DNA from: Megasphaera vaginalis (ex Bordigoni et al. 2020)
Lineage (GTDB): Bacteria; Bacillota; Negativicutes; Veillonellales; Megasphaeraceae
NCBI RefSeq assembly: GCF_900240295.1
Contig: NZ_OEQB01000004.1
Span: 1-64,000, forward strand
Reading direction: 5' to 3'
Length of the DNA stretch: 64,000 nt
The number at the start of each line of letters is the position of its first letter. The stretch's first letter is position 1. Made by a program: the position numbers and the translations under genes. Positions 26,583-62,407 of the stretch are shown piece by piece. The notes below the pieces were generated by a model. That model was not told the DNA's origin. It saw nothing but the letters and a program-made list of their open reading frames with translations, and did no database searches.

Positions 26583-26604
26583 AGGTTATTCCTCTACTGT
26601 CTTT
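26571..26604. terminator. bidirectional terminator between the CdaR gene and the racemase gene
   Basis: AAAAGACAGTAGAGG pairs with CCTCTACTGTCTTTT around TTATT. It overlaps both converging stop codons, so it closes the CdaR transcript and the long minus-strand nitrogenase-like operon. Confidence 0.88.
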
Positions 26605-27308
26605 TTTAACGATTCCGCCGCTAATATCTGCCGAACAAGTTCGGCAATATGGAGCCGCATCGTATCCAAATACGGTACGGGGCTGCTGACATCTTTAAAG
26701 GCCAGTGGCAGCTCCGTACAGCCTAAGATGACGGCTTCCGCTCCCTCTTGCCGCGCCAGTCTCCGGGCAATGTCGCCCAATTTTGCCTGCGTTTCCTCAC
26801 GAACGATGCCGAATTCCAGTTCTTTTTCAATCGCTTCTTTCATAAAGCCCCGTTCTTCTGCCGTCGGAATGACGACACGAATACCGTGTCGACGGAAGGG
26901 AGCTTTGAAGAAGTCTTCTTCCATCGTAAAAATCGTCCCCAAGAGCGCGACCTGCTTCATGCCGGCAGCCACGGCAGCCTGACAGGTCACTTCCACGCTG
27001 CTGACGAGGGGAATGGGCGAGCGGCGCTGCAGCTCGTCGAAAACGAGGTGCGGCGTATTGCCTGTCAATGCGGCAAAATCGGCGCCGGCACCGGCCAAAT
27101 TGGCAATGCCTTTGCCGACATAGTCGATAAGGCCATAGTAATCTTTCGTCGAACAATACGAAAGAATCTTGAAAACATTGAGACTTTCGATCGTCAAATT
27201 AGGAAAAAAAGGGCGTCCCTCCGCCTGTTGCACAGCCGAAACGATTTCTTTATAATACAGCACCGTCGATTCCGGCCCGATGCCGCCGATCAATCCGAGT
27301 TTATTCAT
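26586..27308 (-). CDS. aspartate/glutamate racemase family protein
   Basis: A 240-residue two-domain protein of the PLP-independent Asp/Glu racemase superfamily. The N-terminus GLIGGIGPESTVLYY and the C-terminal LGCTELPL motif, with the second catalytic Cys, are typical. The first active-site motif reads ALTGNTPH, so the usual first Cys is replaced by Thr or Gly. Relatives with such a replacement exist among one-way or L-specific racemases. It starts 11 bases after hydF and is last in the operon. Whether it is functionally tied to the metallocofactor genes is unclear. Confidence 0.82.
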   Translation of the reverse strand: MNKLGLIGGIGPESTVLYYKEIVSAVQQAEGRPFFPNLTIESLNVFKILSYCSTKDYYGLIDYVGKGIANLAGAGADFAALTGNTPHLVFDELQRRSPIPLVSSVEVTCQAAVAAGMKQVALLGTIFTMEEDFFKAPFRRHGIRVVIPTAEERGFMKEAIEKELEFGIVREETQAKLGDIARRLARQEGAEAVILGCTELPLAFKDVSSPVPYLDTMRLHIAELVRQILAAESLKKTVEE

Positions 27309-27319
27309 CGTGCATCACC

Positions 27320-28513
27320 TCATAACGTCTTGTATACATCGGGAAAGACACGGACGCTTCGCTTTAAGATCCCCGTCACGTAGGCAATAAAAATCCCGTA
27401 ATTCGTCATGGCTACGCCTTGGTCCGCCGCACATTTCATGCGGTACTGCACTTCCCGCTCATTAAGCATACAACTGCCGCAGTGAATAATCAACTCATAC
27501 GGGGACAGATCGTCGGGAAATTCCGTACCGCTCGCCGTTTCGAACGTGATCGCCGCACCGGTATGCCGCTGCAGCCAGCGCGGAATCTTTACCGTGCCGA
27601 TGTCATCGCATTGGCGATGATGCGTACAGCCTTCGGCAATCAGCACCTTGCTGTGATTATGCAGCGTCTCGACGGCCGCCACGCCGCGGACGGCGCTGGC
27701 TAACAGTCCTTTATGCCGAGCCATAAGGATCGAAAAAGACGTCAGCAAGATCGAATCGGGCGTCTGCGCCGCCACCGTTTGAAAGGCCTGACTGTCGGTG
27801 ATGACTAAGGCCGGCGCCGTGCCGAGACGGGTCAGCGTCGCGGCGACTTCGTTTTCTTTGACGACGACAACGACGGCGTCACTGTCCAGGACTTCGCGGA
27901 TCGTCTGCTGCTGCGGCAGGATCAGACGGCCCTTCGGCGCCGCCGAATCGATGGGTACGACGAGAAGCACCAGATCGTGCGGCTTAACCAGATCGGCCAC
28001 AATAGGCACACGTTCACTGTTTGGCACGGTGGCGCCAAGGCGTTCTTTTAATTCCCAAATACCGGCGCCCGTAGCGGCGCTGACGGCCAGTTCCCGCTCG
28101 CCGCCGAGGTGCGGCGCTTGCAGATCGGTCTTGTTCCAAACGAGCAGATATGGGATTTTTTTCGCTTCGATCAGAGCGATGATCTCCTCATCGACAGGAC
28201 GCAACCCGACGGTACTGTCGACGATGACGACGGCGATATCCGTCTTGTTCAACACGTGCCGCGTCTTTTTCACGCGCAGTTCACCTAGCTTGCCCGTATC
28301 GTCAAAGCCGGGCGTATCGATGATCATGACCGGCCCGAGCGGCAAGAGTTCCATGGCCTTGTAAACGGGATCCGTCGTCGTCCCCTTCGTCTCGGAAACA
28401 ATCGCCAGATTCTGCCCCGTTACGGCGTTGACAACGCTCGATTTGCCGGCATTGCGGCAACCGAAAAACCCGATATGCAGCCGCTCTCCTGACGGCGTAT
28501 CATTTAATCCCAT
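27320..28513 (-). CDS. hydF: [FeFe]-hydrogenase maturation GTPase HydF
   Basis: A 397-residue scaffold protein that carries the 2Fe precursor of the H-cluster and passes it to HydA. It has an N-terminal GTPase domain (P-loop GCRNAGKSS at about 18-26, DTPGFDD, NKTD), a dimerisation domain, and a C-terminal cluster domain with EGCTHHRQCDD and HCGSCMLNEREV, which supply the His and three Cys ligands. Length is normal. HydE and HydG are absent from the window, and the gene lies in an operon with nitrogenase-like and hyp genes rather than with hydEG. Either it serves the [FeFe] hydrogenase encoded elsewhere or it is a scaffold for the local system. Confidence 0.93.
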   Translation of the reverse strand: MGLNDTPSGERLHIGFFGCRNAGKSSVVNAVTGQNLAIVSETKGTTTDPVYKAMELLPLGPVMIIDTPGFDDTGKLGELRVKKTRHVLNKTDIAVVIVDSTVGLRPVDEEIIALIEAKKIPYLLVWNKTDLQAPHLGGERELAVSAATGAGIWELKERLGATVPNSERVPIVADLVKPHDLVLLVVPIDSAAPKGRLILPQQQTIREVLDSDAVVVVVKENEVAATLTRLGTAPALVITDSQAFQTVAAQTPDSILLTSFSILMARHKGLLASAVRGVAAVETLHNHSKVLIAEGCTHHRQCDDIGTVKIPRWLQRHTGAAITFETASGTEFPDDLSPYELIIHCGSCMLNEREVQYRMKCAADQGVAMTNYGIFIAYVTGILKRSVRVFPDVYKTL

Positions 28514-29046
28514 CCGTACTCCCCCTCTTCCGGCAGATAGCGGGACCGCCCGTCGGCAGCGGCGAGTTTCAACGCCGCCGTCACCGCGTCGTTCAAAGCC
28601 GCGGCGGCGACATAAGGCTGTCCGAACCGTTCCTGCAAAACGGCGGCCGCCGGCAGGCCTGCCGCCGTGACGACGAGATTGGCGGCCGCTGCCCCGGCTC
28701 GAACAAGGTCGTCAAAATCGCCGCCGCAGCCCCATACGCCATGTACGATAAACCCCTGACGCTGCAAAAAACGCACGGCGTCCCGCCTCTGTTCCGGCGA
28801 AATAACGCCAAGTAAATTGATCTTTTTCGGCGGCGCCGCCGCTGTAAAGTCCGCCTGCCACGAGCAACATTGCGACATCACCGGCGCAGTTGGACAGTCC
28901 GCCGCGCAATGACGGGCCACGTAGGCCAGACAGGCGGCGCCGTCAAGCCCTGCCGTAGCCAGCTGTACAGCCGGCGGAAGCCGTCGTATGCGGCGCAGTT
29001 GATCCTGTTCCTTCTCCACAAACTCGCTCCTTCCCGTCTCAGTCAT
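28504..29046 (-). CDS. short nitrogenase-component-1-like fragment protein with a Cys-rich N-terminus
   Basis: A 180-residue protein. Residues about 75-150 (NLLGVISPEQRRDAV...VVTAAGLPAAAVLQ) align by eye with the middle domain of the D-like proteins in this operon, such as the NLLGLTPLDF...VVSATGFYLA region of the gene ending at 29803. The preceding region has Cys39, Cys47, Cys51, Cys60 and Cys61, close enough to bind a cluster. It lacks the rest of a component 1 subunit. It overlaps the NifH-like gene by 8 bases and hydF by 10, so it is tightly coupled and probably not a random relic. Possible roles are a carrier or chaperone for a cofactor intermediate, like NifX/NafY proteins; this is inference. 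Confidence 0.7.
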   Translation of the reverse strand: MTETGRSEFVEKEQDQLRRIRRLPPAVQLATAGLDGAACLAYVARHCAADCPTAPVMSQCCSWQADFTAAAPPKKINLLGVISPEQRRDAVRFLQRQGFIVHGVWGCGGDFDDLVRAGAAAANLVVTAAGLPAAAVLQERFGQPYVAAAALNDAVTAALKLAAADGRSRYLPEEGEYGWD

Positions 29047-29788
29047 CGGCGACCAACGTTGCGGCAAAATCCATATACGTCCGACTGACCGGCAGCGTGC
29101 GGTCTCCTTCGACGACGGTCATGCCGCGGTCTTCGTAATACTGAATCTCTTTGCTCCGCGGAATATCGGCAACGATGGGAACGCCGCACGCGTCGGCAAA
29201 GACGCGAACGCGCTCGTACTCGGCATCGACGTCGCGCCGATTGAGGATAATTCCCTTGACTTGCGCATAGCCGCGGTCGCGAAAATTCCGCACGGCCCGA
29301 TAGATATTGGCAGCCGCATAAAGGGACATCTTTTCCCCGGATGTGACGATAAATATTTCCTTGGCGTAGCCGTCGCGAATAGGCGACGAGAAGCCGCCGC
29401 AAACGACGTCGCCAAGCACATCGTAGAGAACCACGTCAGGCCGGATCCGCTCAAAAACCTCGAGTTCTTCGAGCAAATCGAAGGTGGCAATAATGCCGCG
29501 GCCGGCACAGCCGAGGCCCGGCGTCGGCCCGCCCGTTTCGATACAAAAAACGTTGCCGTAACCGTATTTTCCCAAATGATCGAAATCAGGCGCCGCCGTA
29601 TACTTCCGATAATAGTCCATAACCGGCATGACGGGCTCCCCGTGAAGCAGATTAAGCGTCGAATCGGCCTTCGGATCACAGCCGATCTGAATGACTTGCC
29701 GCTGCAGAAGCGCCAGCGCCGCCGCCACGTTGGCAGTCGTCGTCGACTTGCCGATGCCGCCTTTACCGTAAATGGCAACTTTCCTCAT
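29039..29788 (-). CDS. NifH-like Fe protein 1 (nitrogenase reductase superfamily)
   Basis: A 249-residue ATP-dependent reductase. It has the P-loop GKGGIGKST (8-16), the CDPKADST switch (37-44), and the two Cys that bind the bridging 4Fe-4S cluster of the homodimer, Cys94 (GLGCAGRG) and Cys130 (GDVVCGG). Arg97, the site ADP-ribosylated in some NifH proteins, is kept. It would transfer electrons to the D/K-like proteins encoded upstream. It is shorter than classic NifH (about 270-295), like Fe proteins of the nitrogenase-like groups. Start at 29788 follows GGGAGGA; the frame extends 18 bases further without support. Confidence 0.93.
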   Translation of the reverse strand: MRKVAIYGKGGIGKSTTTANVAAALALLQRQVIQIGCDPKADSTLNLLHGEPVMPVMDYYRKYTAAPDFDHLGKYGYGNVFCIETGGPTPGLGCAGRGIIATFDLLEELEVFERIRPDVVLYDVLGDVVCGGFSSPIRDGYAKEIFIVTSGEKMSLYAAANIYRAVRNFRDRGYAQVKGIILNRRDVDAEYERVRVFADACGVPIVADIPRSKEIQYYEDRGMTVVEGDRTLPVSRTYMDFAATLVADD

Positions 29789-29802
29789 TGCAGAGTCCTC
29801 CC

Positions 29803-31029
29803 TCACAAGTTCTTTTCATCAGCCCACGCCTCCATGGCGCTGCCGATGAAAAGGGGAATATCCCGACGGTAATGCCGTCCCGAATACGCTTCATGGGGAA
29901 AGGAGATGAACTTTCCCGCTTCTTCCGGCAAGAGCCGGCTGTAAATGGGATCGGCAATAACACGCCGTCCTTTGCGGCATTCGCTGCGCAGTACGTCTTC
30001 GACGCTAACGGCGGCAATGTCCGTTAAGAGCAGCGACGGCGCATCGGCCATAGGGCAAATGAGCCGGATCGACGCCGACGGCTGCCGCCGCCGCAGAAAC
30101 TGCCGCAGCGACAGGAGCCAGACGGGCTCGCCGATCAGTACCAGATCGCAAGGGCTGTCGTCATACACCTGCTCCGCCTTCCAGGCATTCAACTCCGCCA
30201 TGGCATGCTTCGCCTTCAGCCGCTTTTCCGTTCCCCTGAGTCCGGTCAGATACGCCATGTCGCCGCGCTGCAGTGCGGCAATCCAAGCCGCTTCACCGGC
30301 AGCGCCGACGGGAATGCCGACGACATACGGGATGCCATATGCTTCTTGCATATATTGCGCCAAGTAAAAACCGGTCGCTGAAACGACGGCATTGACGTCG
30401 GCATCAGCCGCCTGCGCCAACCGCTCGGGACCATCTCCCATAGACCATGACGACTGCAGAATCAGCCCCCGATCAGCAAGCAGTTTTTTCAACGTCGTCG
30501 CATTGCCGACAACGGAAAAATCCAGAGGCGTCAGCCCCAGGAGATTGACGCGCCGCGCCGGCAGCTGCGGCGCCTTCGTCGGCTCCCGGAGAAACCGTTT
30601 GGCATAGGCCACATACGCTTCGCCGGCGCCGGGCAGATAACTGTGAATACCGTCGGTACGGAACCCGAAAGTCGGAATCCCCGTCCGCCTTTCCGTCACC
30701 TTTTCGATTCCTTGAAAATCCGTACCGATGGCGTTGGGCATCGGACTGCCGCCGATGGCGATGAACTGCGGGCGCGTCTCTGCCGCGGCAGCGGCAATAT
30801 CGTCGATGAGCCGGCTGTCATCGCCTTGCACCGCGTCAATTTCACGCAGACCCGAAATATAGATCATGCTCGGCGTATCGTACCATCGCGGCTCGTCATG
30901 CGTATTATATGTCGAATTACACCCGGACGCATCGTGCATGACGATCAGCCCGCCCAACTCGAAAAGCGCCGACGCCATGCCGAAAAGGTCGACGGCATAC
31001 GTAGAAAGCACGCGCTGTGCCTGTTTCAC
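29803..31029 (-). CDS. nitrogenase-component-1-like protein D1
   Basis: A 408-residue member of the NifD/NifK/BchN/CfbD superfamily. It shares the segment MHDASGC (Cys37) and HDEPRW with the paralogue ending at 36950, corresponding to the GPxGC cluster-ligand region of NifD; the other two NifD cluster Cys positions are not Cys. I choose GTG at 31029: it overlaps the previous stop (GTGA) and makes the first 27 residues line up without gaps with the paralogue, ahead of a TTG at 31044. With the adjacent K-like protein it would form a heteromer reduced by the NifH-like protein. The substrate is unknown. Confidence 0.85.
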   Translation of the reverse strand: MKQAQRVLSTYAVDLFGMASALFELGGLIVMHDASGCNSTYNTHDEPRWYDTPSMIYISGLREIDAVQGDDSRLIDDIAAAAAETRPQFIAIGGSPMPNAIGTDFQGIEKVTERRTGIPTFGFRTDGIHSYLPGAGEAYVAYAKRFLREPTKAPQLPARRVNLLGLTPLDFSVVGNATTLKKLLADRGLILQSSWSMGDGPERLAQAADADVNAVVSATGFYLAQYMQEAYGIPYVVGIPVGAAGEAAWIAALQRGDMAYLTGLRGTEKRLKAKHAMAELNAWKAEQVYDDSPCDLVLIGEPVWLLSLRQFLRRRQPSASIRLICPMADAPSLLLTDIAAVSVEDVLRSECRKGRRVIADPIYSRLLPEEAGKFISFPHEAYSGRHYRRDIPLFIGSAMEAWADEKNL

Positions 31030-32375
31030 CCGCGACACCCCCAAGCTTTAATTTGAATAATGGACCGTACATCTTTTGTTTCTTCGCCGGCGTCGCCGAT
31101 CAGGTCGAGAAGCTTCAAGATGCCGACGTAACCATATAAACCGCTGTTTTCGATAAGATTGACGAAATGCGGCGTATTCGTAAAATATGCCGCCATCTGC
31201 CCGATTGCCAACACCTTCCCGTACCGTTCATTATCATCCCGTTTCAACAACCGCCGCTTGTAGTGCGACGTCGACCGCAGCGACAGGTGCGGATAAGCGC
31301 TTTGCAGGTACCGGAAATCAGCCTCTTCGTCACAACTGATACTGTCGAGATAAACGGCATAGACGGAAAAACCGCGGTCAAGCAGAAAACGGGCCAGGCT
31401 CAACGGTCTGGGCGTCGCCGTATAGTCAATGGCGACGGGCGTCTTGCCGACGCGCGCCAGCAATGCCTTCGCCTTCGTCTCGATGGCCCGCTCATAGCCG
31501 TCCGTATCCGGCAATTCCAGCGCGAAACGCTCGGCGACGCGGCGCAAATTGGCCCGCAGTTCTTCGTAAGAATACGTATAAGGCACGTAAATCGCTTCCT
31601 GGCCGAGACGGCGCTCCAGATCTTTCGCCGCCGCCGCCGCATTAGGCAAAAAATAAAGATTGGCCGCGGCGCTTCCCAGATTTTTATACTGTTCATACGT
31701 TTTGCAGGCGGCAAAATCTTGGATTTCCCACTTGCTGCCGCGCAACATGACCGTCAATTCATTTTCGGCATCGACAGGATAGTAATTGACGATAACATTG
31801 ACGGCCCGGCGGCGCGGCAGTTTCGTCACGGCCCGCAGCAGCTGCCGCCGTCCCAGGACATCTGGCGTAAAACGGCGTTGCAGTGTCGGAATCATGTAGC
31901 CGTCAATAAAATCGATATCGGGAAAACGGCGCCGCAACGCCCCGTAAACGACGTGCAGGTCGATGTGCATAAAATGCTGCATGCAGCTCGTAAACCCTTC
32001 GACACATTTGGGCCGGTGCGGCAGATTTTCAATGATATGCGCAATGCCGTCGATCATCATTTCTTCCAGATTTCCTTTAATGATATTTTCATTGGTCAAG
32101 GTCACCATGGAAAACCGTGCAGCGCCGCCCGGCACCTCGTCGGCCGAAAGGACGACGCCATGCAGGCAGCAGGCGCAGCAGACGTAAATCTCGTGGCATT
32201 CGGGAATGAGCAACGGCGAGTGGGCAATCGTCCAATGGCCGCGCGCCGGCGACGCATATTGCAGCCCGATCCGAAAAGGGCGCGGATAAGCCGCGTCGCC
32301 AATCCGTATTTCGGCACCGTCAGGCGTCACTACAGGCGAAATAACGTCGGGATGTATTTCGTTTTCATAAATCAT
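31026..32375 (-). CDS. nitrogenase-component-1-like protein K1
   Basis: A 449-residue component-1-like protein. Putative cluster ligands are Cys60, Cys66/67/69/70 (ECHEIYVCCACCLHG) and Cys124/Cys131 (FTSCMQHFM, matching the NifK TTC position). The run of Cys is richer than in any classic NifK. A later segment, CKTYEQYKNLGSAAANLYFL, is shared with K2 ([19 protein letters not shown]). Start at ATG 32375 is set by GGGAGA five bases upstream; a TTG 21 bases earlier overlaps hypE. It is separated from hypE by 14 bases and overlaps D1 by 4, so hyp and nif-like genes belong to one transcript. Confidence 0.85.
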   Translation of the reverse strand: MIYENEIHPDVISPVVTPDGAEIRIGDAAYPRPFRIGLQYASPARGHWTIAHSPLLIPECHEIYVCCACCLHGVVLSADEVPGGAARFSMVTLTNENIIKGNLEEMMIDGIAHIIENLPHRPKCVEGFTSCMQHFMHIDLHVVYGALRRRFPDIDFIDGYMIPTLQRRFTPDVLGRRQLLRAVTKLPRRRAVNVIVNYYPVDAENELTVMLRGSKWEIQDFAACKTYEQYKNLGSAAANLYFLPNAAAAAKDLERRLGQEAIYVPYTYSYEELRANLRRVAERFALELPDTDGYERAIETKAKALLARVGKTPVAIDYTATPRPLSLARFLLDRGFSVYAVYLDSISCDEEADFRYLQSAYPHLSLRSTSHYKRRLLKRDDNERYGKVLAIGQMAAYFTNTPHFVNLIENSGLYGYVGILKLLDLIGDAGEETKDVRSIIQIKAWGCRG

Positions 32376-32389
32376 CGTTCTCTCCCGTT

Positions 32390-33394
32390 TCAGCAAATCC
32401 GCGGCAGCAGCTCTCCGCCGGGAGGCGGCAGCAGCGTCTGCGCACCGATTTCCGTCGTCACTGTTACCTGCCCGGCGAATTCGGCAGTTACCGTGCCGAT
32501 GACGGCGGCGTGCTGCGAATACGGCCCCTGCCGCAGCACATCGACAAGCGCAGCGGCATGTTCCTGCGGTGCAATGATAACCAATCTTCCTTCACAGGCG
32601 AGATAAAGCGGTTCCAACCCGAGCATGCCGCAAACGCCGCGGACAGCCGGAGCCACGGGAACGGCAGAGCCGTCGAGCCGGATACCGACGCGGCTCTGGC
32701 CGGCAATTTCGTAAAGAACCGTACCGACGCCGCCGCGCGTGGCATCGCGCAGAACATGAAGGTCTTTCGTCACGGCAAAGAGCGACTCCACGGTCTGCCA
32801 CAACGGTGCACAATCGCTGTCGACTTCGGCATTGATGCCGTATTTATCGCGGGCCAACAAAATCGTACAACCATGGCGGCCGACATCGCCGCTGACAATA
32901 ACGGCATCACCCGGTTTAGCCAGCGATCCTGACGTTTGAATACCGTCCTGCACGACGCCGATGCCGGTCGTCGTGATAAAGAGATTGTCCACCTGCCCTT
33001 TGCCGGCTACCTTCGTATCACCGGCGACGATGCGGACGCCGGCCGCGGCAGCCGTCTCCGCCATCGCCGCCGCGTACGTTTCCACCTTCGCCAGCGGAAA
33101 TCCTTCTTCAATGACGAAGGCACAGGAAAGATACAGGGGCTTAGCCCCCATGCAAGCGAGATCGTTGACGGTGCCGCAGATACTCAGTTTGCCGATATTG
33201 CCGCCCTTGAATTCAGGCGGCGAAACGATAAAGCCGTCCGTCGTAAACGCCAGCTTCTCCTGTCCGATCGACAGGATTGCCGCATCGTCACCGGTAAATT
33301 CAGGATTCGAAAAATGAGCTTTAAAAACACTGTCGATCAACGCCGCCGTCTTGGCGCCGCCGGCGCCGTGAGCCAATGTAACTACTGTATCCAT
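32390..33394 (-). CDS. hypE: hydrogenase maturation protein HypE
   Basis: A 334-residue protein of the PurM/ThiL-like fold. HypE accepts a carbamoyl group from HypF on its C-terminal Cys and dehydrates it with ATP to a thiocyanate, the source of CN ligands. The N-terminus AHGAGGAK and the GDDAAIL segment match, and the chain ends in LLPRIC with the essential terminal Cys present. Length is normal (about 330-350). It begins directly after the hypD stop (TAAATG) and precedes K1. All key residues remain, so it should be active. Confidence 0.95.
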   Translation of the reverse strand: MDTVVTLAHGAGGAKTAALIDSVFKAHFSNPEFTGDDAAILSIGQEKLAFTTDGFIVSPPEFKGGNIGKLSICGTVNDLACMGAKPLYLSCAFVIEEGFPLAKVETYAAAMAETAAAAGVRIVAGDTKVAGKGQVDNLFITTTGIGVVQDGIQTSGSLAKPGDAVIVSGDVGRHGCTILLARDKYGINAEVDSDCAPLWQTVESLFAVTKDLHVLRDATRGGVGTVLYEIAGQSRVGIRLDGSAVPVAPAVRGVCGMLGLEPLYLACEGRLVIIAPQEHAAALVDVLRQGPYSQHAAVIGTVTAEFAGQVTVTTEIGAQTLLPPPGGELLPRIC

Positions 33395-34432
33395 TTAAAT
33401 TCCTCCGTATTGATAAAAGGCCGCACACGTCCCTTCGTGCGACACCATGCAGGCGCCAACGGCATGGTCCGGCGTGCAGGCCTTGCCGAAAACGGGGCAA
33501 TCGACGGGCCTGCATTTACCTTGCAGCACGTCGCCGCAGCGGCAGGCCGGATTCGCCTTGCCCGCCTGCTTTGGCACAGCGAACTTCAGGCGGCTGTCGT
33601 ACGCCGCGTAAGCTGCGCGCAGTTGCAGGCCCGAGCTCGGAATCACGCCGAGACCGCGCCATTCCGTATCACACAGTTCCATGACGCCGTCGATAATAGC
33701 CTGTCCCTTCGGACTGCCTTCACGTCGCACGACACGGGGATAGCAGTTTTGAAAGAAGGGCTCGCCGGCCCCGCTCTTGACGACGATATACGCTAACGCC
33801 GTAAGCAGTTCTTTCGCCGTAAAACCGGCGATTACGCCGGAGATGCCCTGTGTCGCCAGTTCCTCACAAATCGCCGTGCCGATGACCGCATGAACGTGGC
33901 CGGGATAGATAAAGGCGTCACAGCTGCCGGCCATGGCGCGATACGCGTTGGGCATCGTCTTATTCGCCGTCAACAGAGAAAAGTTCGTCAGTCCCGCCGC
34001 TTCAGCCTGCTGCACGGCAAGACAGGCCGCCGGCGCCGTCGTCTCAAAACCGACGGCCAAAAAGACGACTTCTTCCTCGCCGTGAGCCGCCGCATACATC
34101 ACCGCATCTTGCGGCGCATAGACGGGTTCAATGCGAGCGCCGCAGCTGCGCGCAGCAGCCAGATTCAGCTGCGTTCCCGGTACGCGGATTAAATCGCCGA
34201 AAGTGCAAATCGTAACGCCCCGTTCCAGCGCCAGCCAAATCGCTTCGTCGATAAAGGAAACCGGCGTCACGCAAACCGGACAGCCCGGACCGGAAATCAA
34301 TTCCAGCGCCGGCGGCAGGAGCTGCCGAATACCGAGGCGGAAAATTTCATGCGTATGCGTGCCGCACACTTCCATGATCCGCAGCGGCTTGCCGTCGTAA
34401 CGGGTCACGATATCATAAGCCTGGCGGGCCAT
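33395..34432 (-). CDS. hypD: hydrogenase maturation protein HypD
   Basis: A 345-residue iron-sulfur protein on which the Fe(CN)2CO unit is assembled with HypC. Visible motifs are MEVCGTHTHEI (about residue 20-30, with the catalytic Cys), GPGCPVCVTP with the redox Cys pair, GFETTAPA, and the C-terminal Cys-rich region (ACRCGDVL, CRPVDCPVFG, CTPDHAVGAC) that holds a 4Fe-4S cluster. Start overlaps the hypC stop (TAATG), with GGAGG inside hypC. All hallmark residues are intact. Confidence 0.95.
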   Translation of the reverse strand: MARQAYDIVTRYDGKPLRIMEVCGTHTHEIFRLGIRQLLPPALELISGPGCPVCVTPVSFIDEAIWLALERGVTICTFGDLIRVPGTQLNLAAARSCGARIEPVYAPQDAVMYAAAHGEEEVVFLAVGFETTAPAACLAVQQAEAAGLTNFSLLTANKTMPNAYRAMAGSCDAFIYPGHVHAVIGTAICEELATQGISGVIAGFTAKELLTALAYIVVKSGAGEPFFQNCYPRVVRREGSPKGQAIIDGVMELCDTEWRGLGVIPSSGLQLRAAYAAYDSRLKFAVPKQAGKANPACRCGDVLQGKCRPVDCPVFGKACTPDHAVGACMVSHEGTCAAFYQYGGI

Positions 34433-34638
34433 TATAAGTCCTCCAAGAGAGCCGTCGTTTCAGCTTCATCATCTGCCGTAATCTTGGCGATCGCCATCCC
34501 GGCATGAATCATGACATAATCGCCGGGATCGAGTTCGTCAAGCAATTCGGCCGACACTTCACGCCGTGCCCCAGACGCATCGACCAATACCATATCTTTA
34601 TTTACCTTCACAACACGTGCCGCCAAGCCTACACACAT
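34432..34638 (-). CDS. hypC: hydrogenase maturation chaperone HypC
   Basis: A 68-residue OB-fold chaperone with the essential N-terminal Met-Cys (MCVGLAARV) and the HAGMAIAKI motif with the conserved His. HypC binds Fe with HypD and delivers the Fe(CN)2CO group to the target protein. Length is typical. In [NiFe]-hydrogenase systems the target is the large subunit precursor; no such gene is seen here, so its client is an open question. Confidence 0.93.
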   Translation of the reverse strand: MCVGLAARVVKVNKDMVLVDASGARREVSAELLDELDPGDYVMIHAGMAIAKITADDEAETTALLEDL

Positions 34639-34653
34639 GAAAATCGTCTCCTT

Positions 34654-36957
34654 TTATCGTTGTTGTATGGAATACATCGCCGCCACAGCCTGTCCCAAGG
34701 CGATACCGCCGTCATTGGCAGGCACGAGACTGTGCGTATATACGTGAAAGCCCGCCGCCGCCAAGTTCTCTTCACAAAGCCGGAGAAGCAAGGTGTTTTG
34801 AAATACGCCGCCGCTCAACGCTACGGCGCCGAGACCGGCAGTGCGGCGAAGCTGCACGCAGACAGCCGTCGTCATTAACGCCAGCGATGCATGAAAGCGA
34901 TACGCCAGCAATCCTGCCGCGGCGCCGGCCAGAAAATCGGCTGTCAGCCGTTGAAAAAGTCGGTCCGTCGGCAATAGCAGCCGGCCGTCGTCCGCTTCCG
35001 GCGCCAAATCGGTATACGCTGCCGCCGGACCGTGATTTTTTTCCCATTCCTCAGCGGCAAACTGCAGCGCCATCGCCGCTTCACCTTCAAACGTCGAAAT
35101 GCGGCACAACCCCAAAACGGCACTGACCGCATCAAAAAGTCTGCCGGCGCTCGTCGAAACGACGCTGTTCAATCCTTCATCGGCCAAAAAGAACTGCGCC
35201 GCCGTCTCCGCTTCCGTCGCCAGAGCCAGCCGTTTTACCAACGCCTGCGTCGCCGCCTTGTCACCGTTACCGTCATAGAGCAGGGAAACGGCAATGCGCC
35301 AGCCTTCCCTGGCGCCGCTGTCCCCGCCGGGTTGTCGGAAGGGCCTGATCGACGCGACGCGGCGGAAGCCGCTGTACGAAACCTGCAAAATCTCCCCTCC
35401 CCAGATTGTGCCGTCCGTACCGTACCCGGTACCGTCAAAGGCAATGCCGAGGACCTCACGGTCGACGCCGTTTTCGGCCAAACAGGAAAGGATATGCGCA
35501 TAGTGGTGCTGTATCCTGATCAACGGCAAGCCCTGCTCGGCCGCGATCTGCGCCGAATGGTACAAAGGGTGCAGGTCACAAGCGACGACTGTCGGCCGCA
35601 CTTCAAGAAGCTCTTCCAGGCGCGCGACGGATTCGCGCAAAACCGCCATGGTCCGCACGTCACCCAGATCGCCGACATAGGGAGAAAGGTAGAAAAGCGC
35701 ATCCTTCGCAAGACAGAAGGTGTTTTTCAATTCTCCGCCAATGGCCAGGACTGCGCCTTTGAAGAATTCCGGCCCCATGACCGGCAAGGGTGCGTAACCG
35801 CGGGAGCGGCGAATCATATACGGCCGGTTGCGGTAAAAACGCATGACCGAATCATCGGCGCGAAGGCGAATCGTCCGATTGTGAGACAAGATCATATCAC
35901 ATAGACCGGTCAGCTCCCTCGCCGCATCTTCGTCAGTACGGCAAATCGGCGCTCCCGACGCATTGGCGCTGGTCATGACCAGAACATCGGGCATATCGAC
36001 GCCGTCAGGATACGTAAAAAGAAGGAGCTGTAACGGCGCATAAGGCAGCATAACGCCGACGGCAGGATTATGCGGCGCCACCGACGGCGCCGCCAGCCCG
36101 CCGGCTTTCTTTGCCAACAAGATGATCGGTTTGGCGTGACCGTCAAGGATCGGTTCCGCCGTCGCCGGCAGGACGCACTCGCGCCGTACTGCCGCCAAAT
36201 CCCGGAGCATCAGAGCAAAGGGCTTGACAGGCCGCCGTTTCAAGCGGCGCAAGCGCTTGACGGCAGCTTCGTTCGTACCGTCGCAGCAGAGGTGAAACCC
36301 GCCGATGCCCTTGACGGCGACAATACCGCCGCCGGCAATGCTGCGGCGCGCCGCCGTGATCGCCGCAGCGCCCTGCTCCGTACCGCCGTAAACGTAAACG
36401 ACGGGGCCGCACTCGTTACAGCACACAGGCTGCGCATCGTAACGCCGGCTTGCGCTGTCGTAATATTCGTCGCGGCAGGCGCGGCACATGGGAAAATCGC
36501 CCATACTCGTCCGTTCCCGGTCGTAGGGCATGGAATCGAGAATCGTCAGCCGCGGCCCGCAAGCCGTACAGTTGATAAAAGGATGAAGATAGCGGCGGTC
36601 GTGTCGATCAAAAAGCTCCTTCTTGCACGTTTCACAAACGGCAATATCGGGAGAGACAAAAACGGCGCCGGCTTCCCGGGTGCTCTCAACGATGGTAAAA
36701 TCGGCAAACGCCGGACTTTTTGCCGCCTCTTCGCAATCGATCTTTAAAATCGCCGACCGCGGCGGCGCCTGCTGCGCCAAGGCCGATTGAAAGGAAGCCA
36801 GCGCCGCCGTTTCCCCTTGAGCGATAATTTCCACATACGATCCTTTATTGCAGACAGTACCGCAAATCCCTGCTGCAATCGCAATGCGGCTGACAAAAGG
36901 CCGGAAGCCGACGCCCTGAACGATACCGAACACGCAGATACGCACTGTATCAGTCAT
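34654..36957 (-). CDS. hypF: carbamoyltransferase HypF
   Basis: A 767-residue enzyme that makes a carbamoyl adenylate from carbamoyl phosphate and ATP and loads HypE. Domains: acylphosphatase (about 1-90, GIVQGVGFRPF), two zinc fingers of CxxC-x18-CxxC type (about 105-180, CETCKKELF...CTACGPR, CRACRDEYY...CNECGP), a YrdC-like domain (about 200-380) and a Kae1-like domain with the HHYAHILSCL metal site (about 475-485). Start at 36957 overlaps the D2 gene by 8 bases. It is full length and apparently functional. hypF lies on the far side of hypC-hypD-hypE, next to the D2/K2 pair. Confidence 0.95.
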   Translation of the reverse strand: MTDTVRICVFGIVQGVGFRPFVSRIAIAAGICGTVCNKGSYVEIIAQGETAALASFQSALAQQAPPRSAILKIDCEEAAKSPAFADFTIVESTREAGAVFVSPDIAVCETCKKELFDRHDRRYLHPFINCTACGPRLTILDSMPYDRERTSMGDFPMCRACRDEYYDSASRRYDAQPVCCNECGPVVYVYGGTEQGAAAITAARRSIAGGGIVAVKGIGGFHLCCDGTNEAAVKRLRRLKRRPVKPFALMLRDLAAVRRECVLPATAEPILDGHAKPIILLAKKAGGLAAPSVAPHNPAVGVMLPYAPLQLLLFTYPDGVDMPDVLVMTSANASGAPICRTDEDAARELTGLCDMILSHNRTIRLRADDSVMRFYRNRPYMIRRSRGYAPLPVMGPEFFKGAVLAIGGELKNTFCLAKDALFYLSPYVGDLGDVRTMAVLRESVARLEELLEVRPTVVACDLHPLYHSAQIAAEQGLPLIRIQHHYAHILSCLAENGVDREVLGIAFDGTGYGTDGTIWGGEILQVSYSGFRRVASIRPFRQPGGDSGAREGWRIAVSLLYDGNGDKAATQALVKRLALATEAETAAQFFLADEGLNSVVSTSAGRLFDAVSAVLGLCRISTFEGEAAMALQFAAEEWEKNHGPAAAYTDLAPEADDGRLLLPTDRLFQRLTADFLAGAAAGLLAYRFHASLALMTTAVCVQLRRTAGLGAVALSGGVFQNTLLLRLCEENLAAAGFHVYTHSLVPANDGGIALGQAVAAMYSIQQR

Positions 36958-37987
36958 CGGTTGCCGTCCTTCCCGAAACGGCAACGTGCGGCACGTCGAC
37001 AAAGGTTCCGTGAAAATGTTTGAGCCCTCGTTTGAAGAAGCTGTCGCCGACGATCACGTCGAATCTATCGCAGTCGGCCAGGGCAATGAACTCGTCTTCC
37101 TCGCGAAGGGCCACATCACCGGCAGCCGCCAACTGCGGCGCCAACGTAAACCATGTCGCCACCGTGACGGCAGCCGCTCCTCTGTCCAACAACTGCTGTC
37201 GCAAAGCGTTGGCCGCCACCTGCTGGTGCACGACGAGAATCGTCCTGCCCTTTACGGCGCAATCAAGGTGCGGCAAAACGGGATACGCCGCTTCATAAGG
37301 AGTATTACAGTACCGCTCCAGATACGCGGCGCTCTTCAGTCCGGCCGGCGAAAGAACGATATTCTTCTCTGCCGTCGCCGCCTCTTCGATCACGTCCAAG
37401 CTGCCGCGCCCGTAGATGAGGACATCTTGCCAGCCCGCCTTCTTAAGAGCCGCCGTGATCGCCGTCACATCATCTGCCCGCAGCAGGTCGAGCGGCGAAG
37501 CGCCGATGACCCCGACGGTACGACGCCGGCGCGGCCTGTCGGTTACCGTAAACGTCCGAAAAAGTTCTGCATAAGCCTTTTCTATGCCCGTATCGTAAAA
37601 ATCCATGCCAGAAGAATCAATGGCCATAACCGGCAGGTGAAGCCGTTTCTCCGCCAGCCGTTTCAACGCTCTGTAATCGGTACCGATGACAGCCGGTACG
37701 GGCGTGCCGATAATCGCGGCAAAGGAGGCGTCAATCGTCTTCGCCGCTTCGCAAAGTTTATCGACAAGACGGTCGTCACGTCCCAAGACGGCGTCCATAT
37801 CTCGCAGGCCGGCACTGAAAACGGCGCTGCGCCTGCCGAACCAGCGCGGTTCGTCAAAACCGCAGATATTCCCGGCGCAACCGCCGGCATCGCAGATGAC
37901 GACGATCCCTCCCAACTCGTAGAGAACAGACGAAACCCCCGCTTGGTCGGGCGCAAAGGGAGAAATATATTTCCACAATCCTTTCAT
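36950..37987 (-). CDS. nitrogenase-component-1-like protein D2
   Basis: A 345-residue paralogue of D1. The N-terminal region reads VVICDAGGCAGNICGFDEPRW, with Cys32, Cys37 and Cys42; Cys37 aligns with Cys37 of D1, while the flanking two are new. A TDYRALKRLAEK segment matches TDFQGIEKVTER of D1, and the middle-domain GASPLDLLRAD matches GLTPLDFSVVG. It is shorter than D1, mostly by a reduced C-terminus. Start at 37987 has AAGGAGA at 6 bases. It sits between K2 and hypF. It would pair with K2; the function is unknown. Confidence 0.83.
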   Translation of the reverse strand: MKGLWKYISPFAPDQAGVSSVLYELGGIVVICDAGGCAGNICGFDEPRWFGRRSAVFSAGLRDMDAVLGRDDRLVDKLCEAAKTIDASFAAIIGTPVPAVIGTDYRALKRLAEKRLHLPVMAIDSSGMDFYDTGIEKAYAELFRTFTVTDRPRRRRTVGVIGASPLDLLRADDVTAITAALKKAGWQDVLIYGRGSLDVIEEAATAEKNIVLSPAGLKSAAYLERYCNTPYEAAYPVLPHLDCAVKGRTILVVHQQVAANALRQQLLDRGAAAVTVATWFTLAPQLAAAGDVALREEDEFIALADCDRFDVIVGDSFFKRGLKHFHGTFVDVPHVAVSGRTATDD

Positions 37988-37989
37988 AT

Positions 37990-39288
37990 TTATTCTCCTT
38001 TTCCTTTCTCCATCACCTTCTGCAGTGAACGAAACAGTTTCGTCACACCGGCATAGCCGAAAGGCTGCCGTTCTTCCGTCCACAGAACCCGGGCGGCGTC
38101 AGGATGATAATACGCCGCGTCCTTGCCGATCGTCGCCGTAACGGCGGCGTCAGGCTCATAGTACAGCATGGACGGAGATAAATTGGACATGATCTTCGTC
38201 TCCGGACTGAGCCGGGCCAGTTGGCGGATATAAACGAACCGTTCCGGCGTCACCGTGCCGTAAATCTCGGCCACGCGCAAACCGTAACGACAGAGCGCGA
38301 CAGAGAGCTCGAACGGGTCGGCATTGGCCATTTCGCCGACGGCGAAAACGGTATCGCCGTGCATTGCCGTAAACAGACCGACAGCTTCCTTCGCTTCCTC
38401 AAAATAGGCCCCGTCATCAAAAGTCATCCCCAAGGCGTTGGCAAAAATCGCATATTGACGCCGGATCTTTTCGATGTCGTACAGCCTCGTCAATTCGACG
38501 CCCGGCATATGAAGCCGCTCCTGCAAATCCCGGGCGGCCAATCTTGACTCTTCGTGCAAAACGAGGTTGAAGTTGGCAGCTCCCATCTCCTGATATTCTT
38601 CAAATGTCTTACAACGGGAGATTTCCTGAATTTTTTTTACGCCTGCCCGGCGAAGTAAGGGATAAATTTCACAAGAATCGATGAGGGGAGAAAAGTATCC
38701 GAGAATATTGACATGATCCGCCTCTTTCGGCCGCTCCTCCAACAGGGAGTATACGGCCTGGCGCACGGCAACCATCGGCGGCTTCCGCCCCTCCCGCGTC
38801 AGGGCGTACATATAACACGGCACGACAGGCAGCCCCACAGCCGCCGCTGCTTTACGGCAAACCCGTTCCATATCGGTTCCCAACAGCGCATCGACACAGG
38901 TCAGACAGATCATGACAACGGAAGGGCGCGCTTCAAGACTGGCGCAGATTTCGCCGACGGCTTGCGGAAGTTTTGTCAAATGCCGTCCGGTAACGATATC
39001 GGTTTCATCCATAATATAAAAGAAAAAGCGCTCGCTGTAACCGCTCATTTCGCTGAGAATCGTCGTATTCCTGCCGCAGCAGCCGGGGCCGACGAGGAGC
39101 ATGACCGAGCCGGGAATGGCAAGTCCGGCCCGTTTAACGCCGAACCCTTCGGCGCCGGGCGAATTAAAAGCCAATGCGGCCGGCGAATTATAAATCAGAT
39201 GTTCCGCCGTAATAAACGCGGCGGGAATTTGTTCGACGCCTGCAGCCGCAAGATCGGCCGCTGTACAAACATAAGCTTTAGGTGTCAT
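37990..39288 (-). CDS. nitrogenase-component-1-like protein K2
   Basis: A 432-residue component-1-like protein. Cys70/Cys71 in [10 protein letters not shown] match the GPxGC cluster ligand, and Cys115, Cys128 and Cys131 ([15 protein letters not shown]) match the second ligand region of NifK. Start at ATG 39288 follows AAGGGAG and overlaps the NifH-like gene by 11 bases. The [16 protein letters not shown] segment is shared with K1. Compared with K1 its Cys pattern is closer to classic NifK, suggesting that the two pairs have different roles. Confidence 0.85.
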
Positions 39289-40048
39289 GATCGGCTCCCT
39301 TATCTGCCAACAGCGTCTTGGCAATGGTTAGGAAATTTCGGCTGATCGGCAATGACGGATCGCCTTCAATGACCGTCTTGCCGCTCTCTTCAAAGCGGAT
39401 AATATCATCGCTGCGGGGAATATCGCCGATAATTTCCAGCCCTCGTTCAGCGGCAAAAGTCCGTACCTTTCGTTCTTCGTCGGGAATATTTCGGCGATTC
39501 AAAATGATGCCGCCCATTTTGGCGTAGCTTCTGTCGGCAAAATTGCAGACAGCGGTATAAATGTTATTAGCCGCATAAAGCGACATTTTTTCACCGGACG
39601 TAACAATAATGACGATCTCAGCGTAGCCTTCCCGGATTGGCGCGGCAAAGCCGCCGCAGACGACATCACCGAGAACGTCGTACAACACGACATCCGGCCC
39701 GTACTGCGCAAAAAGCCCCAGATCCTCCAGGAGACTGAACGTCGCCACAATACCGCGGCCGGCACATCCCAAGCCCGGCGTCGGTCCGCCCGTTTCAAGG
39801 CAGAGAACGCCGCCGAAGCCAATTTTCGACACCGCTTCGATAGACTCCGGTTCCATATCGAAATCGCGCATATAATTCATAATCGGCTGTACGGGCTGAC
39901 CGCCTAAAAGGTTGAATGTCGAATCGGCTTTGGGATCGCAACCGATCTGAATAACCCGTTTCCCCAGAACGGCAAATGCCGCGGCAAGATTGCTCGTGAT
40001 CGTCGATTTGCCGATGCCGCCTTTACCGTAAATGGCAATTTTTAGCAT
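39278..40048 (-). CDS. NifH-like Fe protein 2
   Basis: A 256-residue paralogue of the Fe protein at 29039-29788. It keeps [17 protein letters not shown], Cys95 (GLGCAGRG) and Cys131 (GDVVCGG), so it should hydrolyse ATP and carry a 4Fe-4S cluster. The two Fe proteins are clearly related throughout but differ at many positions outside the motifs, suggesting an old duplication. Start at 40048 follows AAAGGAG; the longer frame upstream covers the previous gene in another frame and is not real. It is second in the operon, 16 bases after the TM1266-like gene. Confidence 0.93.
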
Positions 40049-60466: not shown

Positions 60467-60496
60467 GTTCCGTATTCAAAAGGAGGCTTGTTTTCT

Positions 60497-62407
60497 ATGC
60501 TGTTTATGACCACAGAAGCACATGAAGCGTTACGCAAAAAAATCCGCGCCTTTGCAGAAGAAAAGATTAAACCTATTGCCTTTCGTTTGGATCAAAACAA
60601 TGAATTTCCTGACGAAATCGTCAAAGAAATCGGCGCAAACGGTTGGATGGGTCTGCCCTATCCGAAAGAATACGGCGGTGCCGGACTCGACGTCTTGAGC
60701 TATGCCATTGCCGTAGAGGAATTATCTCGTGTCGACGGCGGTGTCGGCGTTATCCTTTCGGCTCATGTTTCCCTCGGTTCGTATCCGATCGCCGCTTTCG
60801 GCAATGAAAAACAAAAAGAAAAATATCTGCGTCCCTTAGCATCGGGCAAGAAGATCGGCGCCTTCGGCCTGACGGAAGAAAATGCCGGTTCCGATGCCGG
60901 CGGCACGGAAACGACAGCAGTGGACAAGGGGGATCACTACCTCCTCAATGGCGGTAAAATTTTTATCACGAACGCACCGAAAGCTGACATTTATGTCGTC
61001 TTCGCCGTTACTACTCCCGATATCGGAACAAAAGGCATTTCGGCCTTCATCGTCGAAAAGGGCTGGAAGGGATTCGAATTCGGCGATCATTACGACAAAC
61101 TCGGTATTCGTTCGTCGACAACGGCGGAATTGATCTTTAACAACGTCAAAGTGCCGAAGGAAAATCTCTTGGGTAAAGAAGGGCAAGGTTTCAAGATCGC
61201 CATGGCAACGTTGGACGGCGGCCGTATCGGGATCGCTTCGCAGGCTCTCGGCATCGCGCAGGGCGCTTACGAAAGCGCTTTGGATTATGCTAAAGAACGG
61301 CATCAGTTCGGCGATCCCATCGGTATCAACCAAGGTATCTCCTTCAAACTCGCCGATATGGCTACAAAGCTGCGGGCTTCCCGTTACCTCATTTATTCGG
61401 CTGCAGAATTGAAAGAACACCATGAAAGCTACAGCATGGAAGCCGCCATGGCCAAAATGTACGCTTCCGACGCCGCTATGGAAATCACGAATGATGCCTT
61501 GCAGATCTTCGGCGGTTCCGGCTTCTTAAAGGGCATGGACGTCGAACGGGCTTATCGTGACGCCAAGATCACGACGATTTATGAAGGGACAAATGAAATC
61601 CAGCGTGTCGTCATTGCCGCTCATCTTCTCGGCAAGCTTGGAAAAAGTCACAGCGAATCCCGTTCCGTTGCTAAAAAACCTGCGCCGATTACGGGCATAC
61701 GCAAAACAAAAATTTTCAGTGACGGCAATGCTAAAGAACAAGTGGAAACACTGGTTGCAACGTTGAAGCAGGACGGTTATGATTTCTCCGTCGGCATTCC
61801 CGCCGATACGCCGATCGCGCTCGCTGAACGCGTCGTCTCCGCCGGCAAGGGCATCGGTGCCAAAGAAAACATGCGCCTCATTGAAGATCTGGCCGCCGCT
61901 GCAGGCGCCGCCGTCGGTTCTTCCCGCCCCGTCGCCGAAACTTTGCAATACGTACCGATCGAACGGTATGTGGGCATGTCCGGACAGAAGTTCACAGGCA
62001 ATCTCTATATCGCCTGCGGCATTTCCGGCGCCAAACAGCATTTGAAAGGGATTAAAGACGCTTCGACGATCGTTGCCATCAACAAGAACGGCAACGCGCC
62101 GATCTTCAAGAACTGTGACTATGGCATTATCGGCGATGTCAACGAAATCCTGCCGCTTCTGGCCGATGCATTGGGCAGAGAAAAGAAAAAAGCGGCTCCG
62201 CCTATGGTCAAGATGAAAAGACCGCTGCCGCCGAAACCGGAACCGATCGGCCCCCGTTATGTCTGCAGCGGCTGCGGTTATGAATATGTTCCTGAACTCG
62301 GCGACGAAGATGCCGATATTGCACCGGGCACGTTATTCGATAAACTTCCGGAAGATTGGGTTTGCCCGGAATGTGCTGAAGGAAAAGATCATTTCATTAA
62401 AGAATAG
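60497..62407 (+). CDS. acyl-CoA dehydrogenase-ETF alpha domain-rubredoxin fusion
   Basis: A 636-residue fusion with three parts. Residues about 1-380 are a complete acyl-CoA dehydrogenase (LTEENAGSDAGG, catalytic Glu in IYEGTNEIQR at about 362). Residues about 445-560 match the FAD-binding C-terminal domain of ETF alpha (GAKENMRLIEDLAAAAGAA, SGQKFTGNLYIACGISGA, AINKNGNAPIF). Residues about 585-636 are rubredoxin (CSGCGY near the start, CPEC near the end). The ETF alpha N-terminal domain is missing. Electrons could pass flavin to flavin to rubredoxin within one chain. It starts at ATG 60497, 10 bases after AGGAGG. The flavodiiron gene follows, suggesting acyl-CoA-driven O2 or NO reduction. Confidence 0.92.
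   Translation: MLFMTTEAHEALRKKIRAFAEEKIKPIAFRLDQNNEFPDEIVKEIGANGWMGLPYPKEYGGAGLDVLSYAIAVEELSRVDGGVGVILSAHVSLGSYPIAAFGNEKQKEKYLRPLASGKKIGAFGLTEENAGSDAGGTETTAVDKGDHYLLNGGKIFITNAPKADIYVVFAVTTPDIGTKGISAFIVEKGWKGFEFGDHYDKLGIRSSTTAELIFNNVKVPKENLLGKEGQGFKIAMATLDGGRIGIASQALGIAQGAYESALDYAKERHQFGDPIGINQGISFKLADMATKLRASRYLIYSAAELKEHHESYSMEAAMAKMYASDAAMEITNDALQIFGGSGFLKGMDVERAYRDAKITTIYEGTNEIQRVVIAAHLLGKLGKSHSESRSVAKKPAPITGIRKTKIFSDGNAKEQVETLVATLKQDGYDFSVGIPADTPIALAERVVSAGKGIGAKENMRLIEDLAAAAGAAVGSSRPVAETLQYVPIERYVGMSGQKFTGNLYIACGISGAKQHLKGIKDASTIVAINKNGNAPIFKNCDYGIIGDVNEILPLLADALGREKKKAAPPMVKMKRPLPPKPEPIGPRYVCSGCGYEYVPELGDEDADIAPGTLFDKLPEDWVCPECAEGKDHFIKE

Follow-up and report, generated by a model that had tools for sequence, protein, structure and literature searches.

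What receives the iron-cyanide unit that HypC, HypD, HypE and HypF are expected to make in Megasphaera vaginalis (ex Bordigoni et al. 2020)? The window that raises this question, that is the whole stretch of 64,000 nucleotides analysed here (G000:C4:1-64000, from a genome of 2.21 Mb in 17 contigs, 99.35% complete), carries the four hyp genes at the centre of one minus-strand unit, ordered nifH1-D1-K1-hypF-C-D-E-nifD2-K2-H2, a component-1 fragment and hydF, in which neighbouring genes overlap or abut. The original prediction held that the unit is made for a nickel-free client, with the component-1-like proteins of the locus as the closest candidates; hydF (27320-28513), although part of the same operon, falls outside the coordinates covered by that prediction and was not mentioned in it. 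Our comparison of genomes makes it very probable that the operon replaces HydG and constitutes a HydG-independent maturation system for [FeFe] hydrogenases. The most likely client is the [2Fe] portion of the HydA H-cluster, because HydF and HydE are linked to the operon, HydA is present and HydG is almost always missing. For the same reasons, the component-1-like proteins are probably not the final client.

The CO and CN ligands of the H-cluster are usually supplied by HydG, and HydF acts as scaffold and carrier in [FeFe]-hydrogenase maturation. In the known system, tyrosine provides, via HydG, all five of these ligands (PMC3105041). Comparative genomics gives us the gene set, its linkage to HydF and HydE, the replacement of HydG and the presence of HydA. 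NifD1 orthologues (52-64% identity, >450 bits) occur in 13 genomes of a class sample of 160. All 13 possess HydA, HydE and HydF and lack HydG, which is found in 118 of the 135 other HydA-bearing genomes of the class (Fisher p = 8e-11, not corrected for kinship). Within the family (17 genomes), HydG is never found and HydA is found in 16. The genus g17 reproduces this exchange on a small scale: its sole cluster species (G148) lacks HydG, and the 7 sampled congeners have HydG without the cluster. A wider scan of 84,980 genomes gave 503 NifD1 relatives, and the 80 best were retained. They come from Clostridium (C. ljungdahlii, C. carboxidivorans, C. ragsdalei, C. drakei), Lachnospiraceae, Blautia, Roseburia faecis, Coprococcus comes, Anaerobutyricum hallii, Ruminococcus bicirculans, Coriobacteria, Lentisphaeria and a spirochaete, among others; none was found in viral contigs. 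In an out-of-sample set of 50 cluster genomes from several phyla, a few of which belong to Megasphaera species also present in the class sample, HydA is present in 50/50 and HydG exceeds its cut-off in 2/50.

The physical linkage points in the same direction. The order nifH1-D1-K1-hypF-C-D-E-D2-K2 is conserved, with the exception of one genome (G080) where the D2K2 pair lies elsewhere. Among the 80 loci, many of them incomplete, 25 have HydF within or next to the cluster and 10 have HydE there; we estimate that a given gene would fall by chance within ~20 kb, in a 3 Mb genome, in <1% of loci. The arrangement varies: HydF is downstream in Megasphaera, where it is encoded last among the maturation genes of the operon, both in the window and in most loci, HydF-HydE is upstream in R. 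bicirculans (L164) and in a Spirochaetaceae locus (L143), and in another locus (L166) HydE-HydF sits between nifD1 and nifK1. In the HydE tree, cluster genomes and HydG genomes are interleaved, with 10 label changes of which at least 6 are forced by well-supported branches. It follows that only HydG was swapped and that the HydE substrate is likely unchanged in cluster genomes.

The genome of the window itself holds what such a system would have to serve. It encodes two [FeFe] hydrogenases, a HydA of 486 aa (L077:7630-9090, motifs TSCCPAW and ACPGGCIGGGGQP) and an [FeFe]-hydrogenase-like protein of 420 aa (L078:8891-10153, contig C5) with the motif TSCCCPMW, which we take to be typical of group B hydrogenases of gut bacteria. 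HydE is encoded on another contig (G000:C2:96859-97908; 313 bits against a cut-off of 254.6; motif CIKNCRYCG), and the HydF ligands C296xH298 and H344C345xxC348 are invariant in 19/19 sequences. Nothing in the genome exceeds the HydG cut-off: the top match reaches 188 bits for a cut-off of 312, and we rejected it as HydG since it lies between ThiG- and ThiF-like genes and is thus ThiH. HydG-like matches at this level (~190-200 bits) were not accepted as HydG. Earlier work, cited in PMC12874204, dealt with the hydrogenase of Megasphaera elsdenii as an active enzyme.

The genes of the operon are as follows, all on the minus strand.

39278-40048, minus: NifH1-like ATP-dependent reductase (NifH/CfbC-like hidden Markov model matches, under equivalog cut-offs)
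37990-39288, minus: NifD1-like component-1 protein, NifE-like (PF00148, 3.5e-31; nearest solved structure NifE, E 4e-17)
36950-37987, minus: NifK1-like component-1 protein (PF00148, 1.2e-19; invariant motif DAGGCxGNxCGFDEPR)
34654-36957, minus: HypF carbamoyltransferase, start codon set at 36957 (TIGR00143, 743 bits, cut-off 466)
34432-34638, minus: HypC chaperone (TIGR00074, 60 bits, cut-off 48)
33395-34432, minus: HypD, of a special clade apart from [NiFe] HypD (TIGR00075, 368 bits, cut-off 193)
32390-33394, minus: HypE with terminal Cys (TIGR02124, 398 bits, cut-off 252)
31026-32375, minus: NifD2-like component-1 protein (PF00148, 4.5e-10; nearest solved structure NifE; synteny kept)
29803-31017, minus: NifK2-like component-1 protein (PF00148, 9e-28; synteny kept)
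29039-29791, minus: NifH2-like ATP-dependent reductase (PF00142, 1.2e-80; [4Fe-4S] cysteines invariant)
28504-29055, minus: likely NifK2 remnant, a 187-aa fragment (partial PF00148 match)
27320-28513, minus: HydF, scaffold GTPase of [FeFe]-hydrogenase maturation (PF18133, 2.3e-46; PF18128, 1e-39; PF01926)

The hypF-C-D-E set is intact, and its four products all score over the curated NCBIfam cut-offs. In alignments of relatives (Hyp sets of 78-83 sequences), HypC Cys2 and His45, HypD Cys23, Cys51 and Cys54 with the C-terminal Fe-S cysteines, and the zinc-finger cysteines of HypF are invariant, as is the C-terminal Cys334 of HypE (78/78). The intactness of the key residues, already proposed in the original prediction, is thus confirmed and, since the active-site residues are invariant among relatives, the alignments indicate that the Hyp pathway is under selection and is no relic. 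With HypF, HypE, HypC and HypD complete and their known active residues in place, the Fe-CN/CO chemistry of the HypABCDEF pathway is to be expected. The system of the window nevertheless differs from that pathway, as nif-like genes and hydF surround its hyp genes, its HypD belongs to a separate clade, and the genome has neither a [NiFe] large subunit (PF00374) nor HypA (PF01155), two genome-wide queries which recovered their targets in positive-control genomes. HypB was not seen near the operon; no genome-wide search was made for it or for the endopeptidase. The idea of a nickel-free client for HypCDEF therefore holds on this point.

The [4Fe-4S] cysteines C94 and C130 of NifH1 (numbering without Met1) and its P-loop lysines are invariant in 88 relatives, the equivalent cysteines and the nucleotide motif are present in NifH2, and the NifD1 orthologues are 52-69% identical in the loci examined. 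Among solved structures, NifE is the best relative of both NifD1 and NifD2. D1 and K1 are fused in three genomes of family f13 (L064, L067, L069); an AlphaFold model of this natural fusion (mean predicted local distance difference test score, pLDDT, 79; predicted template modelling score, pTM, 0.57) has NifEN as its best fold match, strong for each domain, although the two halves do not superpose together. Because this best structural match is a cofactor-assembly scaffold, the Nif-like proteins look like partners in the pathway and not its end user. The likeness to NifEN and NifH, which extends to the pairing with NifH-type reductases, has its limits. NifD1 scores 67 bits against the NifE equivalog cut-off of 505, that is >400 bits under it, and none of the component-1-like proteins reaches the NifE, NifD or NifK equivalog cut-offs of NCBIfam. 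The system has two pairs, and no nitrogenase was seen in the window. In D1, C71, C72, C129 and C132 are invariant, as are C37 and C42 in K1, in loops which have low pLDDT in the model; C132 aligns to the cysteine of the NifE motif CVPALIG. Cysteines at putative P-cluster positions (D1 C71/C72/C132 and K1 C37) appear to be kept. No conserved Cys was found in the D1 family alignment along the stretch for the ligand of the iron-molybdenum cofactor (FeMo-co) or L-cluster, presumably NifD C275 and NifE C250. With DPOR, COR, CfbCD and methylthio-alkane reductase the proteins have in common the superfamily and the two-component layout, but they fail all the equivalog cut-offs available in NCBIfam, and their gene context is different.

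The 187-aa component-1-like frame was rejected as a functional part of the system. It matches NifK2 from other Megasphaera (L059, L062) best, no counterpart was found between NifH2 and HydF in relatives, and it is probably non-functional, a decayed NifK2 likely left from an ancestral D2K2 pair that would have been superseded by a second subtype ordered D2-K2-H2. A different nitrogenase-like cluster, made of NifH and two NifD-like proteins, was observed in four genomes (L074, L076, L083 and L085, in G102, G126, G066 and G141, respectively). It occurs both with and without HydG, lies in G102 near an ABC transporter, a FecCD permease and a TonB-dependent receptor, and is possibly metal- or tetrapyrrole-related.

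How could these components replace HydG? HypF and HypE convert carbamoyl phosphate into an enzyme-bound thiocyanate, from which HypCD takes CN, together with CO, on iron. We think it likely that the cyanide of the H-cluster comes in this way from carbamoyl phosphate via HypFECD, and not from tyrosine via HydG, and that nitrogenase-fold proteins carry out an ATP-driven ligand synthesis or exchange on an iron synthon. What the intermediates are, and which step each Nif-like pair performs, is inferred. HypF and HypE would produce the cyanide, and HypC-HypD would put it, plus CO, onto iron. D1K1 with H1, and D2K2 with H2, would then accept this Fe-CN/CO unit and, using NifH-type ATP-dependent electron transfer, finish it into a synthon equivalent to the Fe(CO)2(CN) of HydG, through a CO supply by low-potential reduction (e.g. 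CO2 to CO) and/or an exchange of cyanide. It is a guess, with a chance below even in our view, that the Nif-like step supplies CO by reduction or exchanges a ligand and does not have some other role. The retained HydE and HydF would finally assemble the [2Fe] subcluster and place it in HydA.

Other explanations have to be weighed against a replacement of HydG. HypCDEF could make its Fe(CN)2CO unit for the Nif-like proteins themselves, as a new enzyme with a CN/CO cofactor unrelated to hydrogenase. The nif-like genes are indeed the constant neighbours of hypFCDE, more so than hydF. However, this explanation predicts neither the linkage to HydF and HydE nor the presence of HydA in 13/13 and 50/50 carriers with the loss of HydG in 13/13 and 48/50, and it leaves the HydA of the cluster genomes with no known source of CO and CN; we regard it as improbable. 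We give a smaller chance still to the proposal that another radical S-adenosylmethionine (SAM) protein, ThiH or an atypical HydG, does the work of HydG, the cluster serving for repair or for extra CO. ThiH-like proteins are present in many cluster genomes, and an atypical HydG-like clostridial protein of 450 aa has been proposed (PMC9431212). Yet the match in the window genome is the ThiH of a thiamine operon, and many cluster genomes are devoid of even a ThiH-level match, such as C. ljungdahlii, C. ragsdalei, G080, G144 and Ruminococcus bicirculans (best E ~1e-16 to 1e-19).

The least probable explanation, with hardly any chance left in our judgement, is that of an ordinary [NiFe] maturation set, whose large subunit or hypAB would have been missed, or of a remnant left behind after a [NiFe] hydrogenase was lost. 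In its favour, the assembly is a draft of 17 contigs, and some bearers of [NiFe] hydrogenases have no recognisable HypAB (PMC9431212). This explanation is largely refuted by the lack of PF00374 and HypA matches in a genome of this completeness, by the strict conservation of all Hyp active-site residues, and by the HypD tree. In this tree the cluster HypD form one clade (100/100 support), apart from 29 other HypD which include second copies, and five cluster genomes hold an additional, separate HypD of the [NiFe] type; the HypD of the congeners G001 and G007 are identical to those of M. cerevisiae and M. massiliensis, respectively. The HypFCDE sets of three other genomes lacking HydG (G106, G133, G035) were considered as a second version of the system and rejected, as they adjoin complex-I-like (Ech-type) membrane subunits; we read them as ordinary [NiFe] maturation.

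Several observations weigh against the replacement of HydG by the operon. The product of HypCD is Fe(CN)2(CO) and that of HydG is Fe(CO)2(CN); because of this mismatch, the pathway has to include a further, assumed step. Two cluster genomes, Clostridium drakei and C. thailandense, have kept HydG. In one genome (G144, L066) the cluster has hypF and hypC but no hypD and hypE; this genome carries a [NiFe]-type HypD outside the cluster, which may serve both systems. Finally, ~12 of the 25 class genomes with HydA and HydF and without HydG have no cluster (for instance G030, G102, G106, G113, G133, G137, G141, G145, G153 and G169), so that a lack of HydG can have other causes. These genomes may have a further HydG-free route, assembly gaps or an inactive HydA.

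The proposed system bears on a puzzle of acetogenic bacteria. A survey published in 2022 covered eight acetogenic clostridia: HydE and HydF were found in all eight and HydG, by motif, in three, one of which, C. autoethanogenum, was counted through an unusual motif; HypCDEF was present in all and HypAB in three, with two HypCDE sets in C. carboxidivorans (PMC9431212). The authors of the survey had no straightforward explanation and considered unidentified ligand mechanisms (PMC9431212). The cluster described here would explain this pattern. As each of these acetogens also has a [NiFe] hydrogenase, their HypCDEF may serve both the [NiFe] and the [FeFe] systems, and the Megasphaera genome, which is without [NiFe] hydrogenase, is the cleaner case. 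In relation to the HydEFG pathway, the likeness lies in the retained HydE and HydF, in the place of hydF in the operon and in the HydA of all tested carriers, and the difference in the missing HydG tyrosine lyase. No account of such a system was found in open-access PubMed Central; subscription papers and preprints were outside the scope of this search, and the novelty of the system is therefore provisional.

Two neighbouring observations concern the window. An Asp/Glu racemase gene (26586-27308, minus strand) directly follows hydF; we excluded it from the system because no counterpart was found in the loci of relatives. Since dithiomethylamine synthesis has been reported to involve ammonia-lyases (PMC11736057), it is conceivable, by analogy, that this gene is tied to ligand supply. 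Farther away, 60488-62407 (plus strand) encodes a single-chain fusion of 639 aa which combines an acyl-CoA dehydrogenase, an EtfA FAD-binding domain and a rubredoxin.

In the prevailing view, [FeFe] hydrogenases cannot obtain their CO and CN ligands without HydG. If the operon does replace it, the H-cluster would originate in two chemically distinct ways, the Hyp and Nif-like machineries would gain a new shared function, and this would be the first use of the nitrogenase fold in the assembly of a hydrogenase. The unexplained absence of hydG in acetogens and in many gut H2 producers (PMC9431212) would be solved. The operon also offers a tyrosine-lyase-free gene set, to be tried for the production of active [FeFe] hydrogenase in other hosts. 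For the bacteria that carry it, the route from HypFCDE would be the main one in many gut Lachnospiraceae, in Megasphaera and in industrial acetogens.

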